From Cliona cf. orientalis (Eukaryota > Porifera > Demospongiae > Clionaida > Clionaidae), in contig OZ005690.1 in assembly GCA_963930775.1 (NCBI GenBank), positions 5,502,225 through 5,566,224 of the forward strand: a DNA stretch of 64,000 bases. The letters are read 5' to 3'. Shown piece by piece: positions 15,154-59,100 of this stretch. The position numbers were made by a program, and so were the translations under genes. The notes beneath the pieces are model-generated. The model saw only the letters and a program-made list of their open reading frames with translations, was not told the DNA's origin and ran no database searches. Each line of letters begins with the position of its first letter. Position 1 is the first letter of the stretch.

Positions 15154-15497
15154 AGCTGTTTATATACAGAACATTCTGCACTTTGACTGCTAGACAGTGC
15201 CAAGCGGTAATTGATGAATAACTGAACTGCGGTGCCACCCACCATTCAATTACCGTTTCAGGAAATGGAATGGACTGTTTCTTACCACTGGAACGGGCGT
15301 TCCATTTCCGTTCCCATGGAACGGAACAGAACGAAAACGTCACCGTTTTTTTTTTACTCCTACTGTATGGTATGTCATCCACAATCCATGTGTAATCAAT
15401 TAATATGGGGCTTGCCTTCCCCTCATGACTACACATTACCCCCCTCATTAGCAAAAATAACCGCTGCATAGTTGTACAGATTCCCTTTCCCCTATAG

Positions 15498-15954
15498 AGA
15501 AGGATGACTGGAATGTCGTGTCTGTTGAGTGTGGCTCACTAGCTGCCAAGTGGGAGCAGCTCAGTGCCTGTCTTGGTCTTGCTAAAGCCGACATTGATAG
15601 GATAAGGGAAAGCCATCCCAGGGACATCGCTGGATGCTGGAGTGAGGCCCTCAGCCAATGGATTAAGCAGAACTACTCTACTCAGCGATTTGGTTTACCA
15701 TCGTGGAGGTCTCTACTAAAAGCAGTGGCTACGGTGGACAGATGTCTTTGCAAGGATCTGGCCACTAAACATCCATTAGGTACGACTTCACACAATTAAC
15801 ATGATGTAAACTGATCCTAGCATAAAGTTACATTAATTTGACTGAATTAAGCTAGTATAATAATAATTATTATTATTGTTTGTTTTGTTAGATATCCTAC
15901 AAGTACCTTCTGCTGTTGTCCAACCACCAGCCAGCCCTGAGAAGAGACAAAAAA
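15498..15954 (+). CDS. Death-domain gene fragment, two exons
   Basis: Exon 1 (15498-15779) has acceptor CCTATAG|AGAAGG and donor ATTAG|GTACG. It encodes a death domain: SLAAKWEQLSACLGLAKADI, RESHPRDIAGCWSEALSQWI, then FGLPSWRSLLKAV with the conserved Trp of helices 5-6. Exon 2 (15892-15954) joins in phase 1 and reads DILQVPSAVVQPPASPEKRQ before a GTAAGT donor. The protein is incomplete at both ends: no start codon upstream, and no further exon recognised in the next 1.7 kb. The death domain implies a signalling adaptor or receptor role. The rest of the architecture is unknown. Confidence 0.65.
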
Positions 15955-17715
15955 GTAAGTTTATAATAGCTGCTATTTTCTTTTAGAATTCAGCACCCCT
16001 AATTTTAACCCTTTGCACATGCGCGAGGCTTATGGTAGTCATTCTGTCTGTCTGTATGTCTGTTTAATTCTAAGCTAACTGCTATATACCTCATTTGTGA
16101 GTCCAAAGTGCAGGTTTGTAAAGTTCCTTACGGCATTCCAAACACATGTACACATGTATTGTGTGGATTTTGCTGAAAATGCTGTTCTTCGGTTTTGCTA
16201 TCATTTGCTTTTTTAGCTAGTAGTAGAATGACTTTATGTTATAGTTAATGCGTGCGCGGAGTGCAGTACGCGATTTACAGCACGAGAGGAGTGGTCGAGT
16301 GGCTGATAAAGCACGAGGCGAAGCCGAGTGCTTTATCAGACACGAGACCACTCCTCGAGTGCTGTAAATCGTGTACTGCACGACCAAGCGCACGCATTAA
16401 CTGGCTTATTGTATGACACTCCGATGTGGACCGCCATGACAGCCTACTGGTAAGTTTACATACAGGGCCGCCTGTATACCCGTTGATCCGTCACTTTTTA
16501 AAAATTTATTTTTGTGAAAAACGGTCAAATAAAGCTTTAAATTATTTTCAAAAGTAGCAAGGCATAGCTACGTACGCAGATCAGTGCTCTCTGACTTGGA
16601 CAGTTTGTACGTAGCTAGCTCTAGTAGCTAAATCTTAGTCAACCCAGGCTTGAAGGCTATCTAACACAAAAAATACTGACCTTTGACAATTTGAAAGCTT
16701 CTTTGTGACAACTGTTCAGTCTAGAAGTTAGTCTGAACAGTATCAAGGCGAATACTTGCTTCTTCATGTGCTTTTAGACTTTCAAAAACTTAAATTTCTA
16801 ATTAAAGCCCGCTAGCGTGCTTTATGGCCAATAATGTCCGTGCAATATTGGCCATATTGAGCACGCTCTACGTGTACCGGATATAAAGCACGGGCGGTGC
16901 CTTTGATGTTATATGGCTTCATACAATAAGTATAATTATTTCTGTTCGCATGATTTTCAACCAATCAGATGCATTGAAAAGTGTGCATTAAATCACGAAT
17001 TGCACACTTAAGTGTGCATTAAATGGATATTGCACAGTTTGAATGTAGCTAGCTTTGAAATAAGTCTAAACGAGTCAGAACAAGTCACCAACCAAAAGCG
17101 CTTGAGTGTAGAAGCGCGTGAACCAACAATCGTGTAAGTTTGGTTGAAAGTCACTTTGGCCAGAAACAAAATCTTTAGAACACACTTACCTGGCACTGCA
17201 TGATTTAATGTGGTGCACTCGGCACGTCCGTTTTGTCTGGATACTTAATGGTTAATTAGATCGCGCGTGCGTATTTACGATAGCTAATTTGAATATTCAA
17301 ATGAGGTATGACAACTTGCCAATTCTCGGGGGGGGGGGGGGGTTTAGTCCCATGTCCCCCCACAACAATCGAGCTCCAAACCCCCTGAAATGCTGCCAGT
17401 CCCCCCACAAATTCCAGTACATCACCCAGGAAACCACTGCGCAGCAACTGCAAAAAATCTGCAGTAGTGCGCAGCCATTATTGAGCACCTGCATCCTTTC
17501 ACTTCGTTGGTTTCTGGCTAACCGCTTACTCTCAACTCGCCACCACCGGTCAGTAGAAGCGCTTCACCACAGGAAAGAGAGGTCAGAAGATAGTTGGATG
17601 ATTACTTTAAGTAACATAAGTAGTAGCTAGCAGCTTCTATTTTTTCATGCATGTAAATCCTCTCCCAAAATTCACTAAAAAATTACATATAAAAAAATAC
17701 AATAACTCTACGTAG
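15955..17715. other. Non-coding stretch with a foldback repeat
   Basis: Apart from the hairpin at 16244-16401 and a 15-base G run near 17328-17342, I see no gene. The 113-residue plus frame at 17289-17630 reads across the G run and lacks any family signal. Confidence 0.55.
16244..16401. repeat. Imperfect 158-bp palindrome (foldback MITE)
   Basis: Starts GTTAATGCGTGCGC and ends GCGCACGCATTAAC. Arms pair through GCAGTACGCGATTTACAGCA and the AAAGCACGAGGCGAAGCC centre. It would form a long hairpin. A shorter hairpin of similar design is at 25544-25622. Confidence 0.75.
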
Positions 17716-20700
17716 ATGGAATTCCACTTGGAACAGCTTGGCAGGCACTGCAGAGTTTGTGGTGGGATACTTGCCAAGGCTAAAGGAAAGCTAGTCACCT
17801 ATACTTGCAGGGACTATGCTGAACAACTCCAAGCCAGTTTCTCCTTTAGTACCAGCCAAGATGATCCTGAGATACACCCTTCACAGTTTTGCCACTCATG
17901 TTATTGTAGCATGAAACGGTTCTCCAAGGCAGCCAGAGATGGAGTGTCTTTCTGTTGCTCCACAGTTGTCTATGAGTGGAGAGAGCACTGTGAAGACTGC
18001 TCAGTAAGAATTTAAAAACTCTAAAAACATATAGGAATACTCTACTACAATGCTGTACACAAACATACCAGGTGTGTGATCATTTTTGGTGGTGGTCAAA
18101 ATCGCAAGGCCAGGAAGAATAGAGGCCGGCGAGCAGATGTCATCACCAGCACCCTTGAGCACCTCCACACAACAGCACCACCATCGATGTTTCCTGCTCA
18201 CAACCATCCCGAATACGAGACAACAGCAGTATCCACGGATCTGTCCTGTCCCATCTGCGCAGCTGTTTTGGAGCGACCCCTGCAGTTAGCATGTGGTAAT
18301 ATTAATTGCCATAGTTGCTGCTACAGGTGGATAAGTACAGCTATGAGTGGCCCAATATCCTGCCCATGCTGCTACAATCACCAGCTTGACAGCACCACCA
18401 TTCACCCACCCCCACCCATGGTCACCAGCTTACTCTCCGATCTTCTTGTAACTTGTAGCAAGAACTGTGGCAGGCTGGTGAGAGCTGGCCAGTACACCAA
18501 ACACTTGGATAGCAAGTGCACAGAGCACTTCCACATCCAAGTGAATTCTCCATCCAGGATGACCCTTAGGGATGTTCTATCCAAGCCAGCTGCAGTCCCT
18601 CCAACACCAGCAGAGAAGAAGGTGGCCAACCATCTCGTCAAGCGCCTCCTCAACAACTACCCAGAGCAGGTTATAAGAGTCGCCTCAAGTCGTGGTCAGG
18701 TTAGCAGAGTCCTGTTAGACATCAGAGAGAATTAATGAATAAATTAATATAAAATTAATAGCCCCTCACCTTGGTTCCCATAACTGGAAGCCATGTCTCA
18801 AGTGGCAGTGCTTCCAAGAAGACTCTTCAGTGACGATCACAGCAGATCAGCCAAGCTCGCAAGGTCGTTAGTGGTGGAGATGCTTCCTCCCAGCTGCAAG
18901 CAGAAGTGAAGTTGCTGCCAGAAGACCAAAGGAAACAGTTACTTGGTGAGATAGGCTTGCCAGTTGTCATACCAACGGACCATGCCCTGGCAATTAAAGC
19001 GGACCTTGCTCTACCTTGGACCAAGCTGCGGGTATTGAGAAGGTAGGGTCAATCATCCTACATAATAATTAACAATTAATAATCAAGGTGGCTGACTTCA
19101 CTGAATGTTAGCCTGGCTAGTGAGGCAAAACAGAGGGTGCTGGCAAAAAGGATAGTGGGTGACAATATCACAGCAGGAAAGGGAGCCTTTACCTTCTCCA
19201 TGGACAAGGGAGGTGAAGAAATCAAGGAAGTCCCTTTGTTTACCGACCCAATTTGATCACCACTGTATCTGATTATGTGGAGAAACACAAGTAAAATTAA
19301 TAATCACACATACTTAATAATTTAACTAACTTAATTCTGTTGATCAGATCGGAAGGTAACCTCACATGGCATGGTGGAACCATTCCCAGCGATGAGCTGT
19401 GGATCAAGCTGGGTGGGGACAAAGGCAGGGGGAGCTTCAAGTTCAACCTCCAGCTATGCAATGTGCAGCATCCTAACTCCTTGAAGAACACCATCTTAGT
19501 GTCTGTGTTCAAGGCAGGTGACAGCACCATAAACCTTCACACTGCACTGGACATGTACAAGGAGCATGTGACAGAACTGCAAGGGATGCCCCTAAAGTAT
19601 GGTCTTCTGAGTGTATTTTAGAAATCTCCCCACTATGTAATGACTACACAGAGAGAGGAAGATCAAAGTCTTCTTTTCTGGAGACTATGAGTACTTGTAC
19701 CGGATGTATGGGCTATCTGGTGCTAGTGGTAAGACACAAGTGCCTAATTTAGTGATGGCTTACCATCAAATCTTACTTCAGGGCGTCACTGTTGTCTGTG
19801 GTGCACTATTCCCAGCAGCAAACTCAAGATACCTCTTGCACAGAGAGGGCGGTTCCCACTCAGATCCCTGGAGACACTCGAGTCCGAATATAGCAGGTTT
19901 GTGTCAACTGGAAGTGACCTCAGACGGACCAAGGAGTGCAACAATATCATCGGGGAGTACATTCTTGATATCCCCCTAGAAAATGTATGGCTTAGTATTA
20001 CTGTTTACATATGTACAGGGTTTTATACAGGAATTTTCATCAGAGGGGGGAAATCATAGCGTGCGGCAATATACTCAAACTAGGGGGGTCTGGGGGCATG
20101 CTCCCCCAGGAAGATTTTGAAATTTATGACCTCTGAGACTGCTTCTGGTGGCTTCTGAGACTACTTTCACAAGCAAAAAGATTGATTGTTGGATAAAAGT
20201 TACAAGTATTATTATGATAGTTGGCAAATTTCAGGGGGGGGAAATGCCAGTCAGGGGGGGGATATCCCCTGGTTCCCCCCCCTCTAAATAAATCACTGTA
20301 TGTATCATAAGCATGCTTAATGTAGGTTTGCATACCTGGACTCCATCTCTCCCTTGGCATCTAAAATCGTCTGTGGTCACTTCTTGTGGATGCTTGCAAC
20401 AAGCTTAATCTGAAGCTGGCGGATGGAGGAGGCAGAGCCGGGGGAGCAAGCTTCATTCAGTACTCGTCCCTTCTCACTCAACGGCCACAGCTGAATACCC
20501 GGCTCACAACTCAAGAGTCACAGGCAACCATGTTGGAACAGTTGACCACCTTCATGGCACTCAGCCTGCCAGATCCAGAGTCCAATCCAACCCTGAGTGC
20601 ATTCAGACATGAAGCATCAGTAGCCCGTCAACTTGCTGACAGTATGGTAAGATATGATAATATGACACTGAACTCCACCTTACCCATATTTTGTCTCAGT

Positions 20701-21517
20701 CCTCTGAACTCTCTTCCCTTGACGATCAGATCAAGCGGAAATTTAGCCCCAAGGATGGCCCTTTCTACCAGTCACTCGAAAAGAGTTTGAGTGATCTGAA
20801 TGTAGTGAGGCAAGCCTACCATGGAGGATCTTTTGTCGGGAACCATGTTCACAAATTGTTGAAGGTGCATAAGGTGCATAAAATTTAATAACACACACTG
20901 GGGAATGTACATAAAATACGTACATGTACACTGTAGTAACAAAAGTACTATGACTAAAATTCAAACTGCAGTCTAGTAGCACCAAGGTCCTATGTCAAAA
21001 CTTGGTATCAGTGGCAAGCTCTCCAACACTCAAGCGAGTGAGTGAAACCTTTTCCCAGGCATTTCAACTGTTTGCCAAGTGCCACATGGGATACAATGCC
21101 AATGTAGTCACCGACACAGATATGAAGCAAACAGGTGAAGAATCGACTCAAATTGTCACATTGCTAATCATAAAATTAATTATTATTACAAAATTCACAG
21201 AACAAGATTTTGCCACCTTCCTGGAGTACTATCGGCGCACATTTCCTGATGCCACCATCCTGTCGAAAATGCACATCATGGAAGACCACATCATCCCATG
21301 GTTGAAGCGATGGCACACCGGAGCTGGACTTATGGGGGAGCAAGGGGCAGAGTCGATTCATGCTCACTTTATGAAGTTGGAGACACGATACCAGACCATA
21401 GCTAACCCTGTTGACCGGCTAAAATACATCTTCTCCCAACAGATTCTGGATAGTGAACCTTCTCTTGTTGCGCTAAGGCCTCCCCCACAGAAAAGGATCA
21501 AAACTAGCGAGGAATAG
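17716..21517 (+). pseudogene. RAG1 N-terminal-like zinc/RING region fused to an unclassified transposase-like region, about 11 exons
   Basis: Exons by splice phase: 17716-18003, 18072-about 18697, about 18843-19042, 19088-19290, 19348-19596, 19652-19728, 19782-19984, 20326-20646, 20700-20864, 20972-21134, 21201-21517. Exon 1 has CRVCGG, IHPSQFCHSCYCSMKRF and EWREHCEDC, the zinc-ligand order of the RAG1 region before its RING. Exon 2 has a RING (CPIC, CGNINCHSCC, CPCC) followed by a C2H2-like CSKNCGRLVRAGQYTKH, again the RAG1 order. The rest is not the RAG1 core: GGDKGRGSFKFNLQ, FFSGDYEYLYRMYGLSGASG, GRHCCLWC, IIGEYILDIP and GEQGAESIHAHF. Candidate acidic residues are D (19418-19420), D (19683-19685) and E (21338-21340 or 21350-21352). 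Breaks: a T-run frameshift near 18079, a C-run frameshift near 19250, and TAA at 20362-20364. All other exon joins keep phase. It is either a young pseudogene or a gene with assembly errors. Confidence 0.75.
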
Positions 21518-22000
21518 CCACCTCTTCAAGCCTTCTCATCGCTACTTCAGACCTTTTTATTATCTTGTATTGCTTGTTTGTAGCCGTAGGTTAATAACAT
21601 GCCTGATAATGGGCCCATTTTACATGCCATCATACACCACTAAAAAAAAAAAGAAGCACCAAGGTGCACATACCACTTGTAACAAAGCCGCGCAGTCTAT
21701 TGATGCGGCAAGCAGGCAGATGGTAACTTTAGCTGACTTAGACTCACTTCTTATTCAAAACTCTCTCAATACATATGCATGTACACCTTATTATACAAAA
21801 TTAAGTATGATGTGGCACAAAATACTTCAGCAGTTTTCGAGACGTGACCAAGTACAAAATAATAAGTGATACCTAGGACCTAGTACCTTAAATCACAAGT
21901 CAAAGTATAAGTGACCTAATACCTAATAAAGGATTGCACAACAAACATGTAAACAAGCAGCAAATGTCCATTTATGGTAATCTTCCACATTCCTCCCTCC

Positions 22001-23065
22001 TTACGATAACAAAGGGGGATTTGTTCCATCAAAGTCTTTCTTTGGTATCTCGAGTGTGGGAATTGATCCTCGAGAAAGACCATCGGCATTAGCATTGTCC
22101 ACTCCTTTCCGACGTTTTAGGCTGAAATTAAAGGGTTGCAATGCAAGGGCCCAATGAATCAGCCTTGAATTGGTATTCTTCATTCTGTATAGCCACGAAA
22201 AAGGTTGGTGATCTGTCTCAACGGTAAAGCTCTGGGCATACAGGTAAGTGTAAAAGAATCTGAGGGCCCGTACAATAGCTAGGCACTCCTTCTCTATAGT
22301 GGCATAGTTGACTTCCCTTGGTAGAAGCTTTTGACTCGCATACGCCACAGGGTGCTCGTTTCCATCGTCATCCTTCTGACTCAGAACAGCTCCAAGTCCT
22401 ACTTCTGAAGCATCTATTTGCAACATGAACGGCTTAGAGGGATCTGCTACTTTTAGAACAGTTGCTTGTACCATGGCTGTCTTCAGCTCTCGAAACGCTT
22501 TGTCACAATCGGGTGTCCAGGTGACTTGCTTTGGATGAGATTTTCTCGTGAGATTGGTTAGTGGTACTGCGATTGTAGCAAAATTAGGAATGAAGCGGCG
22601 GTAGTAACCGACAAGTCCTAAAAACGCTCACACATCTTTCTTAGTCTTGGGCTCTGGGTACTCCATCACTGCTTTCACTTTCTCTGGATCAGGTTGTACT
22701 TTCCCTTCTCCGATGATGTGGCCCAGGTAGTGTGCCCTCCTTCGGCCAAATTGACACTTCTTCACCTTCACAGTTAGACCTGCTCGCTGGATCTTCTCGA
22801 ATACTTCACTCAGATGTTGCAGATGTTCTCCCCAGGACTGACTGTAAATTACAGCATCATCGATGTACGCTCCTGCAAACTGCTCGCATCCTCTCAAGAT
22901 GTGGTTCATCGTCCGTTGGAAGGTGGCAGGGGCACTATATAATCCAAAGGGCATAACCTCGAACTTGTAAAGTCCACTCGGTGTTATAATGGCTGTTTTC
23001 TCCTTGGCGTCTTCAGAAAGGGGAATCTGCCAATAGCCCTTAGCAAGATCAAGAGTAGATATCAC
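22001..23065 (-). pseudogene. Retroelement reverse transcriptase and RNase H, with one internal stop
   Basis: The reverse transcriptase part (23065-22628) shows STLDLAKGYWQIPL, FEVMPFGLYSAPATFQR and the catalytic box as YIDDAV, a variant of YxDD with I at the second position, followed by YLGHIIGEGKV. A TGA at about 22629 interrupts KTKKDV before AFLGLVGYYRRFIPN. The RNase H part (22474-22001) shows QIDASEVGLGAVLSQ, SQKLLPREVNYATIEKECLA and TDHQPFSWLY and ends in a stop 12 bases after a DGTNPP motif. RNase H is the last domain, which confirms that no integrase follows it. Confidence 0.8.
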
Positions 23066-23215
23066 TTTTGCAGAGCCAATACTTTCAGGACTTCCTCGAT
23101 TCGTGGCATTGGGTAAGCATCAAATTTTGTCACACTGTTCACTTTTCAATAATCCACGCAAAATCTGACTGTTCCGTCCTTTTTTTCCACCAGCACGATT
23201 GGGGACGCCCAAGGG

Positions 23216-25084
23216 CTACAGGATGGATGGATAACTTTGGCTTCTAACATCTTCTACACTTCTTCTTCTACAACTTCCCTCCTGGAGTAAGGTAAGCGAT
23301 ATGGTTTCTGACGAATAGGGGGTCATCTCAGCTACATGAATGTGATGTTCTGAAACACTGGTCCTTCCAGGATTGGCGTTAAAGACGTCTTGGAAGCTCT
23401 TCACAACTTCTGCTAACACTTGCTTCTGAGTAGGTGTCAAATCAGGCATTTCTACACTGTCAATTGTTTCCATTGTTTCTTCTGAAGTCCATTCAAACAG
23501 ATCCAGGTCAAATTCGCTGTCTTCTTCTGACTGCTCTGGATCGATCGTAGCTAAAAGAGCTGAGGCAGAACGCTCTGGGGCTGGATTCCATTTTTTTAGC
23601 AAGTTGATATGATAAACCACCTTCTCCTGGCGTTTTCCAGATGTCTCGACCTCATAATCAACTGGAGTTACTTGCTGTGTCACTTGAAAAGGTCCAACCC
23701 ACTCAAGCTTCAACATGTTTGATTGCTTTGGCAACAGCACTAGCACTTTGTCTCCGCACTCTAGCTTTCGATTCTTTGCTCCTCGATCATAGTACTTTCT
23801 CTGACGATTCTGTGCTTGTTCTGCATTCTGCTGAACTAGATCTGCCATCTCAGCCATCCGTTCACGAATTTCCACTATGTGAGTGATTGTAGGGACTTCA
23901 TCCTCCTGCTCACCAGTCCAGCTCTCCCTCAGGACATCCAGAGGTCCTCGCACTCTGCGTCCATACAGCATCTCGAATGGAGAGAATCCAGTGGACTCTT
24001 GCGGCACTTCACGATAGGCAAACAGAAGGTATGGCAAATACTCGTCCCAGTCCTTCTTGTTCTTCCTTGTGAACTTCTTGATCATGGATTTGAAAGTTCC
24101 ATTGAATCTCTCTACCAACCCATCTATCTGTGGGTGGTAGGGGGTTGTGCGGATCCTCTTGATCTGCAATATACGGTAGATCTCTCCTAACAGACCAGAC
24201 ATGAAGTTTGTGCCCTGATCCATCAGCACCTCCTCTGGAACTCCTACTCGGGTGAATATCTTCAACAGCTCCTTCGCAATTCGAGGGGCCTCAGTGCTCG
24301 GCAGCGGGATTGCCTCCAGGTATCTGGTGGCATAATCACAAATGGTGAGAATGAATCTATTACCATTCTTACTCCTTGGACGCGGTCCCACCAGATCCAT
24401 TGTTATTCTCTGAAATAGCTTCTGGACGAGGGGCATGGGTACCATCTGAGCTCTAGCAGATCGTTTGACTTGACTTTTCTGACACACCTCGCAAGTCTTG
24501 CAGTAGTCTGACACATCTTTGAAGACGCCAGGCCAAAAGTATCTCTGCAAAACTCTTTTTGTGGTCTTTGTCACCCCAAGATGTCCAGCCATGGGTATGT
24601 CATGAGCCAGCTGAAGAACGGTTTGGCGACAACATTCAAGCAAAACTAACTGCTCGCAAGCCTGCACTCCATCGCCTGTTTGATGTCTGGGGTGCCAATG
24701 CTGGTAGAGCAGGCCTCCTCTCCGATAAAACCACGCTCCACCGCTCAATTCCTGGCCAATAGCCTCTCTGGCAGCTTGTAGAGTGGGATCCTGTTCTTGC
24801 CACTCTTGGATTTTCTTTGGTGTGGCTTGCAGAACAGCCACTGGAGTCAATTGTTGGGGTGGATTGTTAGTTTCCTCCTCCCTCCTTGGCTCCTCACCAT
24901 ATTCAGCGACACTGGCTGCTGCACGATACTGCTTCTTGTTCCTGCGTTTCTGAGCCCTACTCAATCTGGCTCGTTCCTGTGAGTTAGAAAACAAATCATT
25001 ATCAAAATTCATTCCAGGCTCCAACTGAGAGTGGTGCTCAGGTACACTAAGGCATGGGAGTACAATTTCGCGTATATTGGCCAT
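23216..25084 (-). CDS. Retroelement polyprotein part: integrase and linker into the reverse transcriptase region
   Basis: A 622-residue frame. Residues about 160-205 hold the integrase zinc finger (H..H in [12 protein letters not shown], then CKTCEVC). Residues about 215-370 hold the catalytic core, with a TMDLVGP aspartate, an MDQGTNF aspartate and a glutamate in [11 protein letters not shown]. Residues about 440-495 hold a GPY/F-like module ([21 protein letters not shown]). An acidic linker then runs without a stop into [20 protein letters not shown], the region that normally precedes reverse transcriptase. The frame breaks near 23290; reverse transcriptase N-terminal blocks continue in other frames with stops down to about 23065. 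The start methionine is uncertain; an upstream gag or protease part is not seen. Confidence 0.8.
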
Positions 25085-26088
25085 TTCCGCTCATGAATAT
25101 CATTTGCATCTAATTTGCATATCATTAATGAGCGTGCACGTGCTCGCTCTCCATATGTTTTGTATTGAGCGGTGAGGCAGCTAGCAGCCAAGAAGCTACT
25201 GATCGATTTCCGGAACAGAAGACGATAGTTTTTGGCTGTAAAAAGCGACTCATCAGAACGTTAGATACCTCTGCTTCATAGATTCATCTGGGAGAAGTGG
25301 ATCTGATTGCTTGTAGGTGAGCGGTAACAAGAAATACATGAACTAGCAGTGGATTTTGGTGCTTGTTGAGCGCACAAGTCAACACCTCGCTCGAGAACAA
25401 GCCTTTTATCCTTCCTCCTAGATAGTTTGAGATACTCCAGCATCTATTTAACTACCTTACGAAGGTCATACGCGTGTGTAAAATTTTTGGGGGTGTGTTT
25501 AAGTGTCCACGTGCAGTATTATGACGAAACGGCTGTGTCAGATGATGCAATAACGTTCGAGGTGGTGTAATGCACTAAGAGGCTAGTGCATTACACCACC
25601 TCGAGCGTTATTGCATCATCCTCGTGCACACATTAAATCACTTAATCCCAGGTAAGTGTGTTATAAATATTACATAGAACACAGTATATTGCTTGTTATA
25701 TACCTTGACACATGAGCTTTAGGCACATGCACATGGTTGCACCACCATGTACTGCCTTCTAGAGCTCAGCTCACTGGCGAGTTTTCCACGGATAAAGCCG
25801 GTGATAGTGGCTTCTTTTCAATTCTAAGGGTATGTATGTTTAGCTACCATGCCATGTGAATTCTTGTGGTATCCTTTGACTCTCTGGCTATCTAAACTTG
25901 TATGCATGCATGCATGCAGTGCTTGGACCCAAGTGAGCAACTTGCAGCGATACTAGTGGACATGCAATACTGCTTAATGTACTTCAGTCTTGCACCAAGG
26001 TTTTGCATCATGCATAGTCCTTCAAGATGTTTTGAGGAAGCTCTAGCTGCTATTATATTGTCCCCAAGAATTGGAGACTATAATAATA
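25085..26088. other. Intergenic with one hairpin
   Basis: Contains the palindrome at 25544-25622. No gene recognised. Confidence 0.6.
25544..25622. repeat. Near-perfect 79-bp palindrome
   Basis: Arms GATGATGCAATAACGTTCGA and GGTGGTGTAATGCACTA are mirrored by TAGTGCATTACACCACC and TCGAGCGTTATTGCATCATC around a short AGAGGC centre. It resembles a foldback MITE. Confidence 0.75.
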
Positions 26089-40983: not shown

Positions 40984-43900
40984 TTATAGAGTAGAAGCAG
41001 TTGCTCCAAGTCCACTTCTACTGAGAGCATCCTTAAGAGCTTGGAGTGTAGCAAAAGAAGAGTTCCCTCGACTGTCGTTTGGAGCCCACTCAAGCCACTC
41101 GGATAACATGGCCCTCAGCCAGCTTTGAGGCGATCCTTGCAATAGGAGTGCTCTAGCTTGAATGTTATCGAGTTCAGTTTGTTGAAAGCCAAGATGTGTA
41201 GCGATATCTCTCCACTGGTGTGCGTGGCGATCAAGCCTATCATAAAGAGCTATCATATCAGATTCTGTGAGTCGTTTGGTATCACTGTTAATTGAAGCAC
41301 TGCTGAGCCAGGACAGCTGATGTGATGTCAGTCTACCACGCTTCCTCTTAGGACACGACCAGAATCCAGTCTCAATATTACCAGCTGCAATGTGAGCCTC
41401 TCCTTCTCCACATCGGCAGACTAATGCAGCTTTTGGACTCGAACTGTAATAGTGCAGATTGACCGAGGCTTTGTGTAATCCTTTGAAGATGGACTGTCGT
41501 ATTTGAGGGATGATTTTGGGGTAAAGATCATCAACAAATTCCTCGCCAACGTCAATGTGAAGCTCAAAGTGAGTGTACATATCGATCAGTGTAATGACTG
41601 CTAGAGAATCAGACAAATCGAACTGGATGCAGTTGCGATAGAGACAGATTGGTGCACCAATTTCATCAACGGAAATTGACCATTTGTACGAGGAGACATT
41701 CTCAGGGGATGGTAGCCAGCACAAGAGAGCACAAAAGATGCCCTTCCTTGGTCCCCCGTCTGGAAATTGTATCGCAAACGAAGGCAGAGCAGAGCTAGAA
41801 GTGCGATGCTTATCAACCTCCTCCTTATCGAGATCTTTAAGGAGAGCAGGGACAAACAGCTCAGTGGCACTGAAGCGAGCAAAGATTAGCAGCTTTGTGA
41901 AAAGATGGACAAGATCGTTGATCTCAAACACTCCCGGTACATAGTGCTTACTGAACTCTTTCTGTGACAGAAACTCTAGCGTTACTAAAGCAAACTCGTA
42001 GAACTTCCTCCAATTATCACCTTTACCTGCGTTATTACATCTTTGGAAAAAAGCAATGACCAGCTCCGTGACCTTATCGATTATGACCTGAGGGTCAGCA
42101 AAGATGACCTCTGGAAGAATGTGAGGATAGTGGAAGAGAACAGAGAGCTCATCGAGATACTGAATGGTGGCATCGAACTCTGCAGCATCATCTTCAAAAT
42201 GAAGCTTTTCAACTGCTGCATTGAAGCAAACTTGTCGACTGATAACACCTTGCTTAAGAGCCTGTGCCATCTCCTCCAAAAGAATCTCAAGGGCAAACCA
42301 CTTGAGAGGAATGTTGACGGGTTGGAAGACACCTTCATCCAGCAACACCTTTCGGACCTGCTCAATAGTAACCTTCTCATGGCCTCCTGGTTTCTTAGCA
42401 TTGAATGCATAAATCATATCTTTTGTGTTTACATCACGGTACACAATCTGCTTCCTCAAGGCAGGTAGCAGGAGCTTAAGAATGGTTGCATTTTTCTGCT
42501 CTCTTGTCTCACTCGATCTCTTCTCCTGGTCTAGGTGAGTGCCAATGATCATGATTTGTGGGCACTCACCTTCACTGCCAGGGGATGACCTGTGAGAGTG
42601 CATGGTTCGAGCACAGTGCTGGAGGAGCTGCTCAATCGTTTGACTGGAAGTGAAAGATTGACCGACTAGTTTCCCATCAACATAGTACTCCACTTGAGGC
42701 CGGCTGGACAGGTCATCGCAAAGCCGAAACACAAAGACATAAAAGTAAAGCCGTCGCAAAAAGATGGGCAAGATTTCGTGAAACTGGGGCTGACCTCCAG
42801 AATCAATGATCTGAAGTATCCTAAAGGCAGCTTGTGGAGATACATTTCGTGATAGCTCATCCATCATCGTAACAAGCTCCTCATCTGTAGAGATGGACTG
42901 GAGAATGCTATATATCTACCTTTGAATCAATGTCACTAGCTTCACCTGAGGAGAGTGATTCCAAAGAATCTGATCGGGAAGGGTGTGCCAAGGCTGAAGT
43001 AGTAGTAGGAGGAGGCGTGCTCTGGGCAGCTGATGACTGCTCCTTAGATTTAATCTGAAGCTCAGCTACAACAGTGGAGACTGGCTCACTGACACTAGCG
43101 GAGGCTTCTGCATACTGAGCCTTAAGCAGATCTAGCTACTACTAGATCAGGATCAATGTTGACCATTGCTTTGGCCAGGAACATTTTCTTCTCTTCTAGT
43201 GTTGTGAGCTTGGCAAACTCCTTGCCCTCGAGGCTCACTCGGTAGACTATGGTAGGCCTCATTGCTAGTGGAGTGCTTTCCCTGTATGCAGGAGGTGGGT
43301 TGCCTACAATCATCTCCTTGATAGAGGTTTTGCCAGAGCCTGCTGCTCCATACATGAGGAGCTTAGACAGCCAGGCTCTGACGTGACCTCTCTGCATTGC
43401 CTCTGTGAACTGACGACGATTCTCTGCCGTACCTGTACATGTATATATGTAAGATTGGATAGGATAACCTTTATGATTGTCATTATCCAAAAGTACTGTC
43501 TAGCCATCGATCAACCCATAGCATACACCTGGTCATATGCATCATGTGATCCATAATAATAATATTATAATGCTCAAGCTCAGCGCCTCAACTAAAACAT
43601 AGTCATGCAATCTATTCGGACATGACCTCAAATGCATAGAAGCAGATGAACTGGCTTCACTTACTCTCTGCTGTACTCCATTCGTACATACATGTACCTG
43701 CATGCACACTATAATGTGTTGTCATAGATAGGGCTGCAAAAGGGCAGACTATGCTGAAAATGTAAGGTATAGTGATTATGCAAACAGCAGCAGCACTTAT
43801 AATTATATTTTTTTATACATGTACAAGTAACTGTAGCCCACTACATAAAATGTTAGTATAATATTCTGTAGGTAGTGTTTATCAATCCCAATTTTAAGGT

Positions 43901-56100: not shown

Positions 56101-59100
56101 TACGTAGCTACAATAAGCACAATTGTCCAACGGCAACATTTGACCACTAAAGTATATATACATGTATATATTATATTATTATGGCGAATTATAGATTTAC
56201 AATTTGGAAGTAATAAAAAAATTAAATGTACTAGCCTTATTTTCAGATTCCTCCTAGTTTTCAGTACTACCGTAGTGTTCTGGGTTTATGCCCATGGGAG
56301 CTTAAACGTATACACAATTTGAGCCTGCATGGGTGCTTACCTGTATAGAAGCTACTACATTGATCCCTTGAAATGAGGTACATGTACATGAGCGCTTACC
56401 CGGGAGTGGGCGCTTGCCTGAGACACTATGGTACATGCAGAAAAACAAGAGAGCTACACATGTATATAAACCTTCAAGAAGTTTCACACGACCTACGTAC
56501 TCACATGCAGGAGCACAACAGCCATCACTGAGGTGATTAGCTATCACATCTTGAACCTCCAGTCAAACTACTACTCAGCACACATTTGCCAACAAAATTA
56601 ATGACAATTTAGGAAGTGCCAGAGCCTGAAGACACATGAGGCTACTAACTTAAAAACGGTGGTTAGTACATGTACATGTACATGCAGGCGTTGATCCTGA
56701 AATTTTGCAAGGAAGGTGGCTGATGGGGTGGCTACGCATAGTAAACCATATACTGGTGCAAGGGGGGTGGTTGGTTAATAATGGTGGACGTCCGCTTCAA
56801 TACTATGTTGCATACTGAAACAACTAGTGAAGAGGGGTGGCTAGCCACCCTATCCACCCCTGCTGGATCAGCCACTGCATGTACACGCCAGTACACTGCA
56901 TAATTATGTATATAGGTTGGTAGTCACAAAAAGTACATCATATACCGGTAATACTATAATATTACATAATTCAAAAATCCAGCAACATGTACATGGGATC
57001 CAGTACACGTATGGTCAGCATTACGTGAACATTCTGAGAAGTCATCGACTCAAATAAGGAGTATGAATTAATGAAACTTGTTATAAGCTCAATAGCTACT
57101 GAACTATTAAGAATTCATAGTCATGTGAATGGTAAGAACATTGTAATTAAGCAATGAATGTAAGTATCTTTGCTACTGTGGGAGGTACACAAGACACACA
57201 GATACATGTATGTATATGTATTATAGGTGAACTGCATGACTATGGCTGATCTGCAAGGATTAGGAGGCTATGAGTGTGAATTTGTTGATGTCATTCCTGT
57301 TGAAGTTCAGACAGAATGTCCCATATGCCTGTATACACTGAAGGATCCTCATTTGGTGGACTGCTGCGGCCATCGATTTTGTCAAGTCTGTATTGAAACT
57401 CATATGTTGGCAAATGACAGCTGTCCCCTGTGCTAACAGGAGAGTCCAAGTGTTGTAATTGACAAGCAGCTTGCCAGGATATTAGGTCAAAAGGAAGTAA
57501 GGTGCACTCATAAGGAAGCAGGGTGTAAATGGACAGGTGAGCTCCGTCTACTTGAAGGTCATCTATTAAGTCCTAATGAGCGTCTGAAAGGGTGCCAATT
57601 TCAAGAACTAAAGTGCAGCTTTTGTAATAGCCCATTCCAACGAAGGCAAATGGAAAACCACAAACTGGAATGTCCTAGAAGGGTAATCATTTGTGAATAT
57701 TGCCACTTTAAATATCCGCTAGAAGAATTGGAAAAGCATTGGCAAAACTGTGACTATTATCCCGTAGACTGCCCAAAAGGCTGTGGAGAAAAAATAAAAC
57801 GTGCGAGAGCAAGTGAACACATAGAGAAACGGTGCAGTTTAACACTTATAGAGTGTCGGTTTGCTCATGTGGGATGCACAGCTCAAAGACTTCGCAAGAA
57901 CATGAGCGACCATTTGAAGGAGTCGATGGAGGATCATCTCTCCATGCTGGAAGATAAATACTCGGAATTAGAGAAAGAGAATGAACATAAAAAACGTGAA
58001 ATGGAAATGTTCATAGAATTTGTACAATTGCAGAATGCACAAAGAGAAACAGTTGAGCAGAAAGATCAAGTATTTGTGGAGAATTTGTCATTTGGGACAA
58101 CTGAGCAAATGCCACGAAGTTTGTTCGGTCAATTTGGTCGACTTCATTCCGTCAAGTTCTATAGCGAGAGTATGAATGCATTGCTCAAGTACCAAGATGA
58201 TGACTCAATACAAAATCTCTTTAGACAATACAACTCGAGAGGTATCAAGCTCCGTGGATCTCAGCTTAAATGTGCCCACCTTTGTTATTGACACATATTT
58301 TATAGAGCATGGTGTTTCTTCCTTTTGGCTTGCTTTTAAACTTAAAATTTTCCAGACACAGGTACATCTTTAGCTTTGAATATTAAATTTGTTGTATATA
58401 TAATTATTATCATACACCAAGTATAAAATTAAATTTTGGGTTTCAGTTTTGATCTATATATCATCATTTTCCCAAGCATACCATGTGCTCATAGCAGTAA
58501 GGAAAATGTTACATGTACATGCTTAACAGGAAGCAATCGTGCATAATGAGAGCTAATAATATTATAATAATATTATATGAATTTTGAACTAATTAAAGAA
58601 TTGTGAACAGAGAGGGTGTTTCTCAAGTAGCGACTAGCAGACCTTCAGTCTCAGCAGCTACATGTACATGCATGTGCCTAACAGACAAGGAAAGCCCACA
58701 CAAATGACACACTTATTAATGATAAAATCATGTGTTGTATACAATGTAGCAAGCTGTGCTTAGTGACATCATCTATAGTAAGATTAGTAACACACCGTGG
58801 ACATTACCTGTTTCAGATTAAGTGCTGGTTCCAGTGTCAATGGAATGAGGAATGGAAGAACACGGCATGCAAGCATCTGCTTGTCAATACCCAGCTTCTT
58901 ATGAGTTAGTGTTTGATGATAAATACCTATAAATAAGGGATAACATGCTGAGAGAGAGAGAGAGAAGGTGGGGGGGGGGGGAAGGGAGGGCCGGTGGAGA
59001 GAGACTAGCTTACCAAGTACAGCCATGAGTACACCAGGCTCCCTGGTTGGTATCTGCTCCAAGATTGGTAATATGTGATCGAGGACAATATGCTTATCGA

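Follow-up and report, generated by a model that had tools for sequence, protein, structure and literature searches.

RAG1 is the enzyme responsible for assembling antibody genes. Did its N-terminal half travel with transposons separately from its catalytic core? The question is raised by a locus in the sponge Cliona cf. orientalis, where a RAG1-like front half lies upstream of a DDE-type enzyme at positions 17716-21517 (plus strand) of a 64,000-nucleotide stretch of contig OZ005690.1 (GenBank assembly GCA_963930775.1, positions 5,502,225 to 5,566,224), hereafter the window. A preliminary description of this stretch had seen in the locus possible support for such separate travel, taking the downstream exons to bear no resemblance to the RAG1/Transib core. 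Our analysis indicates instead that the window holds, with very high probability, a dead copy of a Chapaev-group element, an autonomous DNA transposon of the cut-and-paste type. This group is part of the CMCT (CACTA/EnSpm-Mirage-Chapaev-Transib) clade, and the copy comes from the subgroup in which a RAG1-type N-domain, a RING-like finger and a DDE core are joined. As Chapaevs with a RAG1-type N-domain and RING were described in 2015, the element is a further example of a published architecture and not a new kind.

The gene model comprises 11 exons on the plus strand, the splice sites of which were placed by eye; all ten introns begin with GT and end with AG, and exons 5 to 7 join into a single open frame. 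The motifs on which the preliminary description was built are present where it had put them. Exon 1 (17716-18003) encodes CRVCGG, IHPSQFCHSCYCSM and WREHCEDC, and exon 2 (18072-18699) encodes a RING-like finger (18247-18372) and CSKNCG...H, with a second zinc finger of the form C..C..H..C following the RING at 18454-18519. Downstream of exons 3 (18843-19042) and 4 (19088-19290), GGDKG, SGDYEYL and CLWC are found in exons 5 (19348-19596), 6 (19652-19728) and 7 (19782-19984), respectively, and GEQGAES in exon 11 (21201-21517), which is preceded by exons 8 (20326-20646), 9 (20700-20864) and 10 (20972-21134).

A search of the genome (217 Mb in 149 contigs, the window belonging to contig C2) with exon 11 returned 26 matches, some of which are two pieces of one copy. 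We took 20 loci, covering 24 of these matches, the remaining two being the window itself and C1:21898738. The gene model is collinear from front to back (from before position 100 to beyond position 900) in 17 of the 20 loci, the exceptions being L024, L028 and L037; L026, counted among the 17, is internally deleted. RAG1_imp_bd, the Pfam model of the RAG1-type N-domain, is found in at least 18 places in the genome and DUF1280 (PF06918) in at least 20, and for 12 of the 18 RAG1_imp_bd places a same-strand DUF1280 match follows 1.5-2.0 kb downstream. Both sides of the gene at each locus were scanned for the end motif and pairs were chosen by end similarity. At 11 of the 20 loci (L022, L023, L025, L027, L029, L031, L032, L033, L035, L036 and L040) this revealed inverted repeats of the CAC type flanked by an exact target site duplication (TSD) of 4 bp, and a TSD matching at three of four bases at L030, L034 and L039. 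A stricter, blind rule, which required CAC...GTG ends with 10 or more of 13 positions complementary and a TSD of 4, found 10 of the 20 loci versus 19 of 380 swapped-locus controls; L037, among these ten, has ends unlike those of the family, and L022 and L035 fail the rule because their right ends are ATC and ATG, not GTG. The expectation that the element is mobile, present in multiple copies and bounded by inverted repeats is thus borne out. The window copy itself spans 17223-25537, its 15-bp left terminal inverted repeat CACGTCCGTTTTGTC (17223-17237), which begins CAC, being complementary at 12 of 15 positions to the right repeat GACGAAACGGCTGTG (25523-25537). Left ends of the window type recur in L022, L044, L045 and L046, and were also recovered by pattern search.

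For the back half, exon 5 matched DUF1280 at 3.6e-13 (50.1 bits, curated cut-off 25) over 65 of the 220 profile positions, and the same model was matched by all six reads of a core profile (A1) built from 6 of 19 aligned rows, namely the window copy and 18 of the 20 loci (L028 and L037 were dropped as too short). DUF1280 has been described as comprising putative Chapaev transposases and was grouped with RAG1 in clade II when RNase H-like proteins were surveyed in 2014 (PMC3985635); on the strength of this grouping the core would be predicted to adopt an RNase H fold. CMCT transposases have been characterized by a D-D-E triad with C(2)C and H(3-4)H zinc pairs between the second D and the E, and by 5'-CA..TG-3' termini with a TSD of 2-5 bp (PMC12730594). 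The window copy carries this same arrangement, each codon of which was checked: the first predicted catalytic Asp at 19418-19420 (GGDKG), the second at 19683-19685 (GDYEYL), the C(2)C pair CLWC at 19793-19804, an H(4)H pair at 21272-21289 and the predicted catalytic Glu at 21350-21352 (GAES). Across the 19 rows, the first position is D in 15 of the 16 copies with a letter there and the second in 14 of 17; the Cys of the C(2)C pair are kept in 17/19 and 19/19 copies, the His of the H(4)H pair in 19/19 and 18/18, and the Glu in 15/19. The local spacing is similar to that of RAG1, the reference sequence of which was checked against the PDB, and whose D600, D708, E962, H937/H942 and C(2)C pair we take to be the catalytic and zinc-binding residues. 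In the spliced window copy 19 residues separate the second D from the first Cys, the same distance that is found in RAG1; from the second His to the Glu it is 21 residues versus 20 in RAG1.

In the front half, exon 1, which encodes the N-domain, matched RAG1_imp_bd at 7.7e-9 (36 bits, cut-off 23.3), and its five PDB matches at E<=10 include three at E<=0.01, all of which are RAG1 (best 2.7e-5). This region corresponds to what Kapitonov and Koonin (2015; PMC4411706) named the Chapa domain, a zinc region of RAG1 type at the N terminus of Chapaev proteins, which in two Chapaev subgroups is followed by a RING as it is in RAG1. Among the matches listed for exon 2 alone (60 of 93), BRCA1 RINGs (3.4e-6) rank level with RAG1 (4.1e-6), as do TRIM RINGs, and matches that extend past the RING include RAG1, LNX2, TRAF6, RNF125, RNF168 and others. 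A front profile (A2), built from 5 of the 19 rows picked for their readable fronts, broke this tie: against the PDB its match to full-length RAG1 (6oem) reached 2.7e-15, the 13 best distinct sequences were all RAG1, and the best protein other than RAG1 was LNX2 at 1.5e-9. Generic RINGs therefore do not match better than RAG1, and the reading of exons 1 and 2 as RAG1-N-like holds. Aligned to one RAG1 chain, positions 26-243 of the 292 in A2 run, in order, through the greater part of the N-domain, then the RING and then the finger after it, the second zinc finger noted above lying within this stretch. RAG1_imp_bd was also matched by three of the five single A2 reads, and the read from L031 begins beyond most of that domain. 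Judged by these sequence comparisons, the front motifs are not a product of chance.

The RING-like finger departs from that of RAG1 in its predicted zinc ligands. In 13 of the 14 copies that have a letter at the position of the canonical RING His (alignment column 167), this letter is N, A, S or R; the sole His is that of L030, where the frame is degenerate. Near the last RING Cys pair there is a Cys in 12 of 15 copies and a His in 11 of 15; several copies are near-duplicates of each other and these RING residue counts are not independent. The apparently altered site, which lacks the canonical His and has an extra Cys and His nearby, may point to a role in dimerisation rather than as a ligase.

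Several results weigh against assignment to the Chapaev group or against kinship of its core with that of RAG1. The core profile A1 returned no RAG1 chain from the PDB even at E<=10, and an hhalign comparison of the core with one RAG1 core sequence was not significant (E 0.79, score 12.8), with controls scoring higher (best of 60 shuffles, 23.8; reversed RAG1, 15.3); the non-significant alignment nonetheless sets GNHVHKLL on GNFARKLM and GAES on GNES. In a scan of blocks around 11 conserved acidic columns at three widths, the D533 block was placed best at RAG1 position 707, adjoining D708, in all three widths, the E876 block at 958 (setting E880 on E962) in two and the E857 block at 940 (setting the His pair on H937/H942) in one. 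The D462 block misses D600 (rank 7-13), shuffle P values for the D533 and E876 blocks are 0.14-0.85, and four other blocks have lower P (0.007-0.02) at places in RAG1 that include S685/E686, E649 and C656, where they have no known counterpart; we consider the scan weak support on these three grounds. L040 has Asn in place of the first catalytic Asp, no convincing end pair with a TSD was found at L021, L024, L026, L028, L037 or L038, and the flanks of the window copy, TCGG (17219-17222) and TCAG (25538-25541), which form its putative 4-bp target duplication, agree at only three of four bases. A TSD of 4 bp, the length seen at these loci, is taken as a general Chapaev trait, and the proposed subgroup placement draws on Pfam models and published descriptions. 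AlphaFold models built from the single sequences of exons 1 and 2 had a mean predicted local distance difference test score of 49.5 and 38.9, respectively, and were left unused because of this low confidence.

As neither the HMMER profile search nor hhalign detected significant similarity to the RAG1 core, homology of the two cores is suggested by the shared signature, its spacing and the literature and not by a significant score. The statement that the downstream exons do not resemble the RAG1/Transib core does not stand in that form: the match to DUF1280, a group classed in one clade with RAG1, the C(2)C and H(4)H pairs and the order of acidic residues, a signature common to Chapaev, Transib and RAG1, and the similar local spacing leave the claim of unrelatedness unsupported, yet the direct score is not significant. 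The more general claim that a DDE-type enzyme lies downstream is upheld by the DUF1280 match and the D..D-C(2)C..H(4)H..E signature.

A scan of the genome with PF12940, the RAG1 core model, gave no match, and its controls were also silent, so absence is not established. Separately, weak matches to RAG1-core protein (E 0.3-0.7) were seen at G000:C4:7309994-7310872, C1:13680790-13681131 and C1:28845727-28845924, two of which sit in long open frames (544 and 801 amino acids); these are possibly Transib-type transposases.

The strongest competing explanation is one in which the RAG1 N-half moved independently of the core and was joined late to an unrelated DDE enzyme, in the manner of N-RAG-TP, a mobile element of Aplysia reported to be composed entirely of RAG1 N-like sequence (PMC8355894, 2021) and from which the N-half of RAG1 has been derived (PMC8355894; PMC13337447, a 2026 review). 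Like N-RAG-TP, the Cliona element is mobile and encodes a RAG1 N-like protein, and the clear RAG1 N-half in the profile search, together with the lack of significant RAG1-core similarity downstream in HMMER and hhalign, speaks in favour of such an origin. Unlike N-RAG-TP, as far as its published description allows the comparison, the Cliona element adds a transposase, and this transposase is of DUF1280/Chapaev identity, a group within the RNase H clade of RAG1 (PMC3985635), and has the C(2)C/H(4)H signature in common with RAG1. Moreover, the two halves stand in order in 17 of the 20 loci, divergent copies included, and the fusion of Chapa and RING to the core has been inferred for the ancestor shared by Chapaevs, Transibs and the progenitor of RAG (PMC4411706). 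We therefore regard a late joining as very improbable, and the proposed separate travel of the N-half finds no backing in these loci.

A second possibility, that the locus is a host gene domesticated from such a transposon, draws on the 11-exon gene with GT/AG introns still being recognisable in the window copy, and is contradicted by the condition of that copy. Relative to both sister copies, L021 and L022, which are 93-94% identical to it over the aligned stretches, the window copy has a 14-bp deletion near the 5' end of exon 2 that breaks the frame and a 1-bp frameshift in exon 4, and exon 8 contains an in-frame stop (20362-20364). It is also interrupted by other repeats. An insertion in intron 7 (20013-20299, strand not assigned) is missing from both sisters and its pieces recur at other loci, and a partial long terminal repeat (LTR)-type retroelement on the minus strand (21678 to about 25461), with reverse transcriptase-RNase H and integrase domains, replaces about 270 bp of the sister copy L022; an LTR pair was looked for in this block and none was found. 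The sister copies also carry small deletions in exon 1. Given the lesions in exons 2, 4 and 8, the window copy is unlikely to yield a full protein, and with near-identical and divergent copies elsewhere in the genome, many of which have terminal inverted repeats and TSDs, we give domestication almost no credence. Equally little can be given to the idea that an unrelated RING gene of the generic sort was combined with a transposase close by, through chance or by the annotator, as the level ranking of BRCA1 RINGs with RAG1 for exon 2 alone would allow, since the A2 profile favours RAG1 over RING proteins, exon 1 at E<=0.01 matches only RAG1 and the order of front and back is kept in 17 of 20 loci.

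Set beside known systems, the element resembles RAG1 in its N-domain, RING and second finger, and RAG1, Transib and TransibSU in the order of its acidic and zinc residues. Its ends begin with CAC, as do Transib ends and V(D)J signals. The similarity of its core to that of RAG1 falls below significance. It is also unlike Transibs in having a TSD of 4 bp rather than 5 bp (PMC4411706). The closest likeness is to the RING-bearing Chapaevs, which have a RAG1-type N-domain, a RING, a DDE core distantly related to Transib and DUF1280, and which were placed within the Transib superfamily; compared by description only, the Cliona copies differ from them in the missing RING His ligand (PMC4411706). No sponge is named among the RING-bearing Chapaevs in the available portion of that paper, and no sponge Chapaev is described in the titles or abstract openings returned by full-text searches of an open-access library for papers, one of which, PMC4298943, contains both 'Chapaev' and 'sponge'.

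By analogy with RAG1 and Transib, a transposase of this type would bind the CAC ends, its putative RNase H core with the C(2)C/H(4)H zinc site pairing the CAC...GTG termini and its DDE site cutting both. The ends would then be inserted elsewhere across a stagger of 4 bp, giving rise to TSDs of that length. The zinc region at the N terminus and the RING-like finger would probably serve in contact with DNA or a partner and, as in RAG1, in dimerisation and regulation; regulation through ubiquitin-ligase activity of the finger is conceivable and less certain.

With regard to the origin of the RAG1 N-half, these data add to the record a genome with several divergent subfamilies of RING-bearing Chapaevs, and they fit joint travel of the N-domain, RING and core better than separate assembly. 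We tentatively raise the possibility, which we consider less probable than its converse, that the RAG1-type N-domain, a RING-like finger with an altered zinc site and the DDE core were already combined in Chapaev-type transposons of one of the earliest-branching animal lineages, represented here by several divergent subfamilies in a sponge, such that the N-half of RAG1 need not stem from a later fusion of Transib and N-RAG-TP. The set of copies with defined ends allows the trees of the N-domain and the core to be compared.

Relatives and neighbours of the element provided some further observations. The best RAG1_imp_bd place in the genome, L052 on contig C13 (G000:C13:4161200-4162000), has no DUF1280 nearby and encodes an N-domain and the start of a RING, followed closely by residues resembling the last ones of the transposase; we rejected it as a separate gene, since it has the appearance of an L040-type relative that has suffered an internal deletion. 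Two peptide patterns recovered no intronless relatives from a viral contig collection. In two scans of contig collections the only relative outside the Cliona genome was L051, from the genome contig collection, where a contig of the Cycloclasticus symbiont assembly from a poecilosclerid sponge carries a remnant of the last exon with 35% identity. This contig is probably host DNA. The occurrence fits, and does not prove, a sponge family of elements.

Within the window, the transposon is closely bracketed by the two arms of a 43-nt inverted repeat with 84% complementarity (17170-17212 and 25629-25671), and it may have landed inside another repeat. A further inverted repeat with 37-nt arms (97% complementary) adjoins the right end of the element at 25541-25620. 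Elsewhere in the window, Death-domain matches slightly below the Pfam cut-off were seen at 15461-15799 and at 40984-42915 (minus strand), and a TRAF-type zinc finger is present at 57437-58291.

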